From the NCBI GenBank assembly GCA_021816925.1, contig JAKAWQ010000003.1, positions 62,001 through 126,000 on the forward strand: DNA of 64,000 bases. Direction: 5' to 3'. Below the pieces are notes generated by a model. The model saw only the letters and a list, made by a program, of their open reading frames with translations, had not been told where the DNA came from and searched no databases. The position numbers and the translations under genes were made by a program. Shown piece by piece: positions 48 to 3,794 of the stretch. Numbering within the stretch: position 1 is the stretch's first letter; every line of letters begins with the position of its first letter. The stretch comes from Pseudomonadota bacterium. GTDB lineage: Bacteria; Pseudomonadota; Alphaproteobacteria; Acetobacterales; Acetobacteraceae.

Positions 48-467
48 TCAGGCGCGGGTCGGCACCTGCACCAGTGCCTCGCCCTCGATCACCGGCTTTC
101 CCTTGACGAAGCAAGTGGTCTTCAGCGTCGCCCGCTTGCGCTCCGGATCGAGCGCCGTCACCTCGACCGTTGCGCTGACCGTGTCGCCGGGCCGCACCGG
201 GGCGCGGAAGCGGAGGCTCTGCGAGAGATAGATCGTGCCCGGTCCCGGCAATTTCGTGCCCAGCGCGGCGCTGATCAGCCCGGCCGAGAGCATGCCGTGC
301 GCGATCCGTCCCTTGAACATCGAGTGCGCCGCGCTCTCCTCGTCGAGATGCACCGGGTTGGTATCGGTGCTGACAGCTGCATAAAGCACGATATCGGCCT
401 CGGTGATGGTCTTCGCCACGCTCGCCGTCATGCCGATCGAAAGATCTTCAAATAAGTGCCCGTCCAT
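48..467 (-). CDS. MaoC-family (R)-enoyl-CoA hydratase, PhaJ-like
   Basis: A single hotdog-fold hydratase of 139 aa, the usual PhaJ length. The family adds water to trans-2-enoyl-CoA to give (R)-3-hydroxyacyl-CoA, linking beta-oxidation to polyhydroxyalkanoate synthesis. The catalytic Asp and His of the hydratase motif are visible as D35 and H40 (D-T-N-P-V-H), followed by the conserved R-I-A-H-G-M segment. The open frame extends 70 codons further upstream, but that stretch is Arg/Pro-rich and unlike the family, so the ATG at 467 (M-D-G-H-L-F) was chosen. It is divergent from the cytochrome gene, with 234 nt between them that hold no other gene. The function is a family assignment; its true acyl chain length is unknown. 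Confidence 0.85.
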   Translation of the reverse strand: MDGHLFEDLSIGMTASVAKTITEADIVLYAAVSTDTNPVHLDEESAAHSMFKGRIAHGMLSAGLISAALGTKLPGPGTIYLSQSLRFRAPVRPGDTVSATVEVTALDPERKRATLKTTCFVKGKPVIEGEALVQVPTRA

Positions 468-701
468 GGTGTGCCCCGGCTCTGTGCGGATGCCGAGAAG
501 CCACGGGTGCGGGGCAAGGTCAAGCCGCGCGGGCCGTGGCCATGCTCTCTTGGCGACGCCCCCTCGGTTCGATCTCCCGGCCGAATGATTTTCCTGCCTG
601 CCGCACGACCATGAACGCAGGCTGGGGCGCGGAGGGTGCGGGGTGCCCCGAAACGCCGTCTGTAATCCAGGTGTCATGTTCGATTCCTATGCTTCCTGCT
701 C

Positions 702-1859
702 ATGGAAGGAGATACTGTCGAGGTCGGCCAGGCGCAGGAGGTCAAGGTCTGGGATCCGGCGCTCAGGCTGTTCCACTGGCTGTTGGCGGGCAGCGTTTTT
801 GGCGCTGCCCTTACGGGCTTTCTTGAAAGGCGACTGCAGCTCGGCCTTCACCTCGCATTCGGGACAAGCATCGGGGCGCTGTTGCTTTTCCGCCTGATCT
901 GGGGGTTCTTCGGCCCGACTTATGCGCGGTTTGCGAGCTTCCTCCACCCGCCGGGGGCAGTGATCGAGCACCTGCGAGAGCTTCGCCACCCCCGGCCGGT
1001 GCAGCATCTCGGCCATAATCCGCTGGGCGCGCTGATGGTCTTCGGGCTCTTCACGGTACTCGCGGCGCTCGTGGGGACCGGCCTTGTCGTGCTTGGCGGG
1101 ATGCTGGCCGAGGGGCCGGTTGCGTCCTTCACAAGCTATGCAGTGGGCCGGCCGCTGCTCTTCGTGCATGGCGGGCTCGCGGTGCTGCTGGTGCTCATGA
1201 TCGCGGGGCATCTCGGCGGCGTCGCCTTCGAAAGCCGGCGCGGCGAGCACCTCGTGCGGGCCATGATCAGCGGCGCCAAGCGCGTCGGCCCGCGCACCCG
1301 CTGGGCACAGCCGGCGCAGGCGCGGCCGTTCGCCGCGGCAGCGGTTCTCGTTGCCGGACTGTTCGTGAGCGCAGCCGGCATTGCGGCGCTTTCGGCTCTA
1401 CCCGATCCCCGCGTTCCGCCGGTGCCCGCGTCGCGGAAGACCCACGCGGCCAAGGCCTATGCACGCGAGTGCTCGGCCTGCCACATGGCCTATCCACCGG
1501 AATTGCTTCCGGCCCGTTCCTGGGCGGCGATCATGGGCGGGCTCAGCCATCATTTCGGCGAGGATGCGAGCCTCGGCAGCCGGCGCGAAACGGCAGCGAT
1601 CTCGGCCTATCTCATAGCGAATGCGGCGGCGCACTGGGACACGCTGCCGGCGCATCTCTTCCGCGTGGTCGATCCGGCGCAGCCGCTGTTGATTTCGGCG
1701 ACGCCTGCCTGGCGGCGGCTGCATCGGCACATTCCGCCCGCCGTCTTCCACTCCAAGGCAGTCGGCAGCCCGGCCGCTTGCGATGCGTGTCATCGCGACG
1801 CCGCAACCGGTTTGTTCGCGCCGCAGAACATCCACATCCCAAAGAAGGCCATGCCATGA
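702..1859 (+). CDS. Cytochrome b561 fused to a diheme cytochrome c domain
   Basis: This 385-aa protein joins a membrane cytochrome b to a periplasmic diheme domain. The first ~225 residues carry about five hydrophobic helices of the Ni-Fe hydrogenase/b561 type, with candidate heme histidines in R-L-F-H-W (H25), L-G-L-H and later helices. A Pro/Ala linker leads to a DHC-like domain with two covalent heme sites, C257-S-A-C-H261 and C360-D-A-C-H364. In Rhodobacter sphaeroides, cytochrome b, DHC and SHP are separate neighbouring genes; here one DHC is fused to the b subunit. It would pass quinol electrons outward to periplasmic hemes. The stop overlaps the next start by 4 nt, so the three genes form one operon. 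The electron donor and acceptor are inferred. Confidence 0.85.
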   Translation: MEGDTVEVGQAQEVKVWDPALRLFHWLLAGSVFGAALTGFLERRLQLGLHLAFGTSIGALLLFRLIWGFFGPTYARFASFLHPPGAVIEHLRELRHPRPVQHLGHNPLGALMVFGLFTVLAALVGTGLVVLGGMLAEGPVASFTSYAVGRPLLFVHGGLAVLLVLMIAGHLGGVAFESRRGEHLVRAMISGAKRVGPRTRWAQPAQARPFAAAAVLVAGLFVSAAGIAALSALPDPRVPPVPASRKTHAAKAYARECSACHMAYPPELLPARSWAAIMGGLSHHFGEDASLGSRRETAAISAYLIANAAAHWDTLPAHLFRVVDPAQPLLISATPAWRRLHRHIPPAVFHSKAVGSPAACDACHRDAATGLFAPQNIHIPKKAMP

Positions 1860-2299
1860 GACGGCGCACCGTGCCTGCTCTGTTTTTCGTGTTCTTCGTG
1901 TTCGCCGCGGCGGCCGCCGTGCGGGCCACGAGCGTCGCCCAGTATGCCGCCGAACGGCAGGCCATTCTCAATCATTACGCGGCGCTCGCAAAAAAGGTCG
2001 ATCCCAACTTCAAAGGTTTCTCGGCTGCCGCGGGCAAGGCGTTCTTTCTTGCCCATCCGGCCGCGGCGAGACCCGCGACACCGTCCTGCTCGTCCTGTCA
2101 CACCACCAATCCGCACAACTGGGGTGAGACGCGTGCGGGCAAGAAGATAGCACCCGTGGCGGTTTCGGTGACGCCGTCACGCTTCACCGATCCACGCAAG
2201 GTTGAGATGTGGTTCCGGCGCAACTGCGAGTCGGTTTACGGCCGCACCTGCACGGCATTCGAGAAAGGCAACTACATCACGTTCATGGCGAGCCAATGA
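1856..2299 (+). CDS. SHP-like monoheme cytochrome c (DUF1924)
   Basis: A 147-aa exported cytochrome with an N-terminal signal sequence (hydrophobic residues ~7-22) and one heme site, C78-S-S-C-H82. It resembles sphaeroides heme protein (SHP), a class I cytochrome whose sixth ligand is an Asn that leaves on reduction, so that oxygen or NO can bind. A candidate ligand N123 lies 41 residues after the heme His, directly followed by C124 and by C132 eight residues later. From memory this matches the Asn ligand and adjacent disulfide of R. sphaeroides SHP. The start ATG overlaps the upstream stop (ATGA), as does its own stop with the next gene. The likely electron source is the adjacent DHC proteins. 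Family and ligand are fairly sure; the physiological substrate is unknown. Confidence 0.82.
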   Translation: MRRRTVPALFFVFFVFAAAAAVRATSVAQYAAERQAILNHYAALAKKVDPNFKGFSAAAGKAFFLAHPAAARPATPSCSSCHTTNPHNWGETRAGKKIAPVAVSVTPSRFTDPRKVEMWFRRNCESVYGRTCTAFEKGNYITFMASQ

Positions 2300-2874
2300 G
2301 ACAGACGAGGCGGACTTTGCGGTTTCGGACGCTGGTGGTGCTGGCCGCCGGATTGCTTGTACTGGTCGCGCTCGGCGTGACGCTGCCGACGCGGGCGCAA
2401 CCGGGTGCTCAGCCTCCGGGCCCGGTCGGGGCGCGGACGTGGCAGAGCCAGTGCAGCGCCTGCCACATGGCTTATCCGCCGTGGCTTTTGCCGGCGCGCT
2501 CGTGGCGGGCGATCATCGGCGACCTCAGTCATCATTTCGGCGAGGACGCGAGCCTTTCGAAGGGTCAGACGGCGCGCGCTCTTGCCTTCGGAGTGAGCCA
2601 CGCCGCGGATTCGCGTTACGGCAAGGCGAAGTTCCTGCGCGGACTGCTTCCTCGTGCAACGCCGCTCTACATCACCGACCTGCCGTGGTGGCGTGCCAAG
2701 CATCGGCGCTTTCTGTTGAGCGGTGCGATCACCCTCGGGCCGGGACCGCACGCCGCGGCGAACTGCGGCCGCTGTCATGGAGCAGGCCGCGGTCGGGCGG
2801 GGAGAGAACATGGACTGGGCCTGATCCGCGGCGGAGGGGAAGGCGGTGGACACGAACACGAGGGCGGCAACTGA
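2296..2874 (+). CDS. Diheme cytochrome c (DHC-like), periplasmic
   Basis: A 192-aa protein with an N-terminal membrane anchor or signal (residues ~12-32) and two heme motifs, C53-S-A-C-H57 and C157-G-R-C-H161. DHC is the known redox partner of SHP. The stretch around the first heme (H-M-A-Y-P-P, L-L-P-A-R-S-W, L-S-H-H-F-G-E-D-A-S-L) is almost the same as in the C-terminal domain of the b561 fusion two genes upstream, so the two DHC units look like duplicates. The C-terminal 30 residues are Gly/His-rich and lie beyond the expected fold. It starts at 2296 with a 4-nt overlap with the SHP gene and is the last gene of the operon; 104 nt separate it from the creatininase gene. Confidence 0.83.
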   Translation: MRQTRRTLRFRTLVVLAAGLLVLVALGVTLPTRAQPGAQPPGPVGARTWQSQCSACHMAYPPWLLPARSWRAIIGDLSHHFGEDASLSKGQTARALAFGVSHAADSRYGKAKFLRGLLPRATPLYITDLPWWRAKHRRFLLSGAITLGPGPHAAANCGRCHGAGRGRAGREHGLGLIRGGGEGGGHEHEGGN

Positions 2875-2978: not shown

Positions 2979-3794
2979 ATGGGCGAGGATTGGCGGCGTA
3001 CGCATGAATGGGGAACGCTGACGCGGGCCGAGATCGCCGCCGCGCGCGATGCCGGCGCGCTGCCGGTTCTGCCCGTTGGCTCGGTCGAGCAGCATGCGAA
3101 CCATCTCCCGGTGGATACCGACAGCGTTTCCGCCTGGCGGGTGGCACTCGCCGCAGCGGCGCGTTGTGCCGATCCGCACGTGCTGGTGCTGCCGCCGCCG
3201 AATTTCGGCTTTTCGCCGCATCATCGTGCCTTCGCCGGCACGATCGCGCTCTCGCTCGAGACATTCGTCGGACTCGTTTCCGATGTGGCGGAGAGCCTGC
3301 ATCGGACGGGCTTCCGCCGACTGCTCGTCGTCAACGGGCATGGCGGCAATCAGGGGCCGTTGACGGCGGCCTGCACGGCGCTTGTCAGCCGCGGGCTTGG
3401 GGTGGGTTTCGTGAATTATTTTTCGCCCGGGCAGAAGCAATGGATGGAGAAGCTGCCCGGGGAGATGCGCGGGGTTGGCCATGCCTGTGCGTACGAGACC
3501 GCGATGCAGCTTGCGCTGCGCGCGCCGGCCGAAGCCGAGCGCATCGCCGCGCGCATCCGAACGCTGCCGCCGCGCCTTTCGCCCTCCTATCTTGAAGGCA
3601 ACGCGCCGGATCCGCTGAAGCCGGCCGGGGCGGCGTGGGCGGCGATCTTTCCTGCCGGCGATATCGGCTATATCGGGGATCCGGCCGCCGCCACGCCGGA
3701 GGCAGGCGCGGCGCTGCTCGAGGAGACAATCGCCGCGCTCGCGCGTTTTTATTCCGATTTCGCGGCGGCCCCGCTGCGCGTTGGCGCTGCCTGA
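2979..3794 (+). CDS. Creatininase-family amidohydrolase
   Basis: A 271-aa zinc-dependent cyclic amide or amidine hydrolase of the creatininase/MftE/FAPy-deformylase family. Metal ligands of the family are in view: E37-x-H39 in G-S-V-E-Q-H, an Asp at 46 or 48 in V-D-T-D-S, H121 in N-G-H-G-G-N, and a Glu in C-A-Y-E-T near residue 170. Family substrates include creatinine, formamidopyrimidines and peptide tails, and the sequence alone does not choose between them. The ATG at 2979 gives the family length and begins just before the first conserved block; the open frame continues far upstream in a sense that overlaps the cytochrome gene and was rejected. It is followed by about 195 nt without a gene. 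Confidence 0.82.
   Translation: MGEDWRRTHEWGTLTRAEIAAARDAGALPVLPVGSVEQHANHLPVDTDSVSAWRVALAAAARCADPHVLVLPPPNFGFSPHHRAFAGTIALSLETFVGLVSDVAESLHRTGFRRLLVVNGHGGNQGPLTAACTALVSRGLGVGFVNYFSPGQKQWMEKLPGEMRGVGHACAYETAMQLALRAPAEAERIAARIRTLPPRLSPSYLEGNAPDPLKPAGAAWAAIFPAGDIGYIGDPAAATPEAGAALLEETIAALARFYSDFAAAPLRVGAA

Follow-up and report, generated by a model that had tools for sequence, protein, structure and literature searches.

The window analysed here is the whole 64,000-nucleotide stretch of contig JAKAWQ010000003.1 (assembly GCA_021816925.1, positions 62,001 to 126,000), which derives from a member of the Acetobacteraceae. Close to its beginning lie three overlapping genes on the forward strand, which are given below together with their overlaps and neighbours.

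48–473, minus strand: MaoC-type dehydratase gene, before the operon, at the start of the window
702–1859, forward strand: CytB/mDHC chimera, 385 aa (Pfam, AlphaFold2 model and PDB match)
1856–1859, forward strand: ATGA overlap joining the CytB/mDHC stop and the SHP start (direct reading)
1856–2299, forward strand: SHP (sphaeroides heme protein, DUF1924), 147 aa, with an apparent signal peptide (Pfam, phmmer and model)
2296–2299, forward strand: ATGA overlap joining the SHP stop and the sDHC start (direct reading)
2296–2874, forward strand: sDHC, soluble diheme cytochrome c, 192 aa, with an apparent signal peptide (Pfam and phmmer)
2979–3794: creatininase gene, after the operon

Given the ATGA overlaps at both gene junctions, the CytB/mDHC, SHP and sDHC genes would almost surely be co-transcribed on a single transcript. 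A search of the window for a promoter-like site of the operon found none, and no regulator gene is located beside the operon in the window. Farther downstream, on the minus strand, a chromate transporter is split into two neighbouring half-length genes, both of which match PF02417 (3990–5074).

In the 385-aa product of the first gene, Pfam searches assigned residues 16–191 to cytochrome b561 (PF01292, E 1.5e-22) and residues 253–372 to DHC (PF09626, E 8.6e-33), with a fifth transmembrane helix between the two domains at approximately residues 212–230. Alignment of 49 sequences revealed that five histidines of the four-helix b domain (H25, H50, H105, H156 and H170) are invariant, as are the heme motifs of the fused DHC (CSACH, 257–261, and CDACH, 360–364) and its sixth-ligand histidines H284 and H341, except that the last motif falls in a gap in one row. 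The same invariance of the heme histidines and both CxxCH motifs was observed in a full-length alignment of 12 fused sequences from separate genomes, where the other members are 32–48% identical to the window copy. Structure prediction of the fusion with AlphaFold2, which had been suggested as a check in an earlier note on this DNA, yielded a model that is confident over nearly the whole chain (mean pLDDT 92.8, pTM 0.89). Its C-terminal part matches the DHC of Rhodobacter sphaeroides (2FW5), and its N-terminal part matches FdnI, the quinone-reactive cytochrome b of Escherichia coli formate dehydrogenase N (1kqf_C, E 8.5e-4). Five helices, four of the b domain and one ahead of the DHC, would leave the C-terminus of the fusion on the periplasmic side, in agreement with the requirements of c-type maturation, and quinol oxidation is presumably carried out by the PF01292 domain. 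A frame or assembly artefact was also considered as the source of the fusion and was rejected, because the one-ORF arrangement recurs in dozens of independent genomes.

The second gene encodes a clear member of the DUF1924 family (PF09086, E 1.9e-33, 115.2 bits against a cut-off of 22.5). By phmmer it matches the R. sphaeroides SHP (1DW0) with an E value of 3.2e-25 and without gaps over 92 residues, and its heme motif is CSSCH at residues 78–82. The predicted structure (pLDDT 91.7) has a c-type fold that superimposes on 1DW0 with a TM score of 0.93 by target length, an rmsd of 1.0 Å and 41% identity. In R. sphaeroides SHP, N88 serves as the axial ligand and C89–C97 forms a disulfide (PMC2909971). 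The gapless alignment places N123, C124 and C132 of the window protein on N88, C89 and C97, respectively, which upholds the proposal of the earlier note that SHP keeps an Asn ligand candidate with an adjoining Cys pair. Among 52 SHP sequences, the position of N123 is occupied by Asn in 51, and the two cysteines are both retained in all. N123 is therefore a candidate axial heme ligand, and C124–C132 a candidate disulfide; since the AlphaFold model lacks heme, the ligand position of N123, which the earlier note had expected to lie over the heme, rests on homology to 1DW0 and is in keeping with that expectation.

Some natural variation of the axial ligand was also encountered. The lone exception among the 52 sequences is an SHP from an Acetobacteraceae metagenome-assembled genome (L068:1334-1705), in which Thr (RRTC) replaces the axial Asn and both cysteines are kept; this natural ligand variant is absent from the 2010 list, which comprises Asn, Asp and His (PMC2909971). 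Two alphaproteobacterial SHPs (L009 and L016) have Asp at the position of the axial ligand, and in L009 the SHP is apparently joined to a cytochrome b, the arrangement known from Rhodospirillum rubrum.

The third gene product contains two CxxCH motifs, read directly in its sequence, and matches both PF09626 (E 1.1e-25) and the R. sphaeroides DHC (2FWT/2FW5; phmmer E 1.2e-27). Past its second heme motif, the protein ends in a Gly/His-rich segment, GGGEGGGHEHEGGN (window 2820–2871), a possible metal-binding tail. A third DHC candidate in the genome (C30:48836-49009, L003) was unconvincing, its frame being a single-CxxCH protein beside short c-type cytochromes.

Taken together, the Pfam assignments (PF01292, PF09626 and PF09086) bear out the b561-DHC fusion, the second DHC and the SHP-like protein of the earlier note, with correct coordinates. 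Its statement that the SHP/DHC/cytochrome b set is known with separate genes was wrong, the split form having been taken for the sole known form. The operon of R. sphaeroides consists of a membrane-bound CytB/mDHC chimera, SHP and soluble sDHC, in the same order in the Rhodobacteraceae (PMC2909971, Meyer 2010), and the chimera has also been reported in Rhodoferax, Campylobacter, Arcobacter, Sulfurospirillum and Wolinella, although the split form was the majority in the 2010 survey (PMC2909971). Both the fusion and the operon arrangement are thus already known and were published in 2010, so that the novelty claimed for them does not hold; the fusion is common and characterised. The earlier reading as a whole is partly supported.

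Comparison with the described systems places the window operon closest to that of R. sphaeroides, with which it shares the three genes, their order, the fusion, the tight spacing, the conserved Asn ligand and C89–C97 disulfide, and the lack of an adjoining regulator; the difference is that the window host lies outside Rhodobacteraceae. In the Rhodospirillum rubrum/Magnetospirillum type, the components are the same, but it is SHP rather than DHC that is fused to CytB, and the SHP ligand of R. rubrum is Asp instead of the Asn of the window protein. Split operons of other Pseudomonadota contain the same three families, whereas CytB is encoded there by a short ORF that lacks a DHC domain, and usually only one DHC is present.

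The distribution of the SHP family was surveyed in genome samples of the order, class and phylum, comprising 200, 385 and 398 genomes. Matches were obtained in 4 genomes of the order (2 strong), 12 of the class (10 strong) and 86 of the phylum sample. When the strong-match loci were fetched, the fusion was present in 9 of 11 alphaproteobacterial SHP loci; the remaining two are L009, apparently a CytB/SHP chimera of the R. rubrum type with Asp as ligand, and the Asp-type L016. Among 30 loci from the phylum search, the CytB/DHC fusion was found only in L037 and L045, a count for which the 1.5-kb flanks may have missed some CytB genes. The fusion alignment was further used to scan 84,980 species genomes, a search that favours fusions by design and returned 52 fused loci among the best 80, of which 46 have the order CytB/mDHC–SHP–sDHC. 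In the samples covered here, SHP loci of Alphaproteobacteria carry the fusion as a rule, and it is present in Gamma- and Betaproteobacteria as well. The genomes of Rhodovulum marinum (L076) and R. euryhalinum DSM 4868 (L072) show a gene order identical to that of the window. The same operon is carried by two Ruegeria plasmids (L057 and L139), where it is preceded by genes for PepSY proteins and a two-component system and, in L057, followed by a copper ATPase gene. The fusion nearest to the window copy (58% identical) belongs to an Acetobacteraceae metagenome-assembled genome (L059), which makes a host of this family probable for the window. No fused match was detected in four other genomes of the window's genus, two of them incomplete, and the operon therefore appears patchy.

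How the fusion arose was addressed with a tree of 163 DHC domains (132 columns, unrooted and without Campylobacterota, its bootstrap not fully settled). A branch with 96/89 support divides this tree, with all 64 fused copies and L116_S1 to one side and every soluble copy to the other. L116_S1 is an apparent fusion cut by a contig end, in which the query match begins at residue 162 and the DHC lies at the C-terminal side. Recent duplication of sDHC inside the window operon was rejected, as its two DHCs fall on either side of this branch, and they are therefore old paralogues, a result that agrees with the argument for a DHC duplication before Rhodobacteraceae (PMC2909971). The fused side spans alpha-, gamma- and betaproteobacterial copies and one from a Nitrospirota-labelled metagenome-assembled genome, and a single branch holding all of these favours one fusion event; the tree thus suggests one old duplication and fusion behind the fused DHCs. 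Several origins of the chimera were considered likely in 2010 (PMC2909971), and shared functional constraint on the fused domains could also have drawn them together in the tree. We give roughly an even chance that the DHC–CytB fusion arose once, before the alpha-, gamma- and betaproteobacterial copies split, or had one origin and was passed on by transfer. If so, mDHC and sDHC would be an ancient pair of paralogues, against the several origins favoured in 2010.

On the basis of these comparisons, the window operon is very probably orthologous to the SHP operon of R. sphaeroides, a quinol-fed source of electrons for an SHP that switches ligands to bind O2 or NO. In the mechanism envisaged, quinol of the inner membrane would reduce both b hemes in the CytB domain, and electrons would cross to the periplasmic mDHC, which is tethered by the fifth helix, before reaching SHP either through sDHC or directly; the order mDHC to sDHC is the one we infer. 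Reduced SHP would then release its axial Asn and bind O2 or NO, in a reaction that is most likely protective, of the oxygenase or NO-dioxygenase type. The path from quinol through b561 and DHC to SHP put forward in the earlier note is well founded, the same path from quinol to CytB, the DHCs and SHP having already been proposed (PMC2909971). In R. sphaeroides, SHP is reduced by DHC and binds O2, according to the literature, and NO dioxygenase activity has been reported for it (PMC2909971); next to nothing on SHP function was found in the open literature after 2010. The physiological role of the operon in the window organism may be of this kind.

A serious alternative, though one that we consider unlikely, assigns the operon to iron or copper handling, with quinol electrons being delivered during metal stress to an acceptor in the periplasm and SHP acting as the terminal ligand-binder; it differs from the O2/NO-binding explanation in the last step only, and both are compatible. 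In Allochromatium vinosum, the genes Alvin_0020-0023, whose annotations are DUF1924, diheme cytochrome c and b561, rise strongly on pyrite, where they are among the most induced, and adjoin a ferrous-iron efflux gene (PMC11267869), a response that hints at a role other than NO/O2 handling. Copper genes flank two plasmid copies, a Czc link has been mentioned (PMC2909971), and the window itself has the split chromate-transporter pair farther downstream. However, plasmids are biased towards metal genes, and the commonest families of 105 sampled flanking ORFs include none linked to metals, response regulators coming first with 7; these ORFs gave no consistent conserved neighbour as a functional clue. 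Far less probable still is that the b561 part is a superoxide oxidase or the dedicated cytochrome b of another enzyme and its pairing with SHP incidental. In favour of this reading are the breadth of the PF01292 family and a weak fold match of the b domain to E. coli superoxide oxidase (5oc0, E 0.15); against it, the match to FdnI is better, and neither the fused DHC nor the way in which SHP and sDHC are strictly linked to it in tens of genomes would be explained.

Orthology to the R. sphaeroides SHP operon is thus the reading retained here. As an extension of a described operon to another alphaproteobacterial family, the finding carries little weight alone. The wider survey shows the fused form to be the ordinary form in Alphaproteobacteria and the fused and soluble DHCs to be two old lineages, and the respective role of each DHC therefore becomes a testable question.
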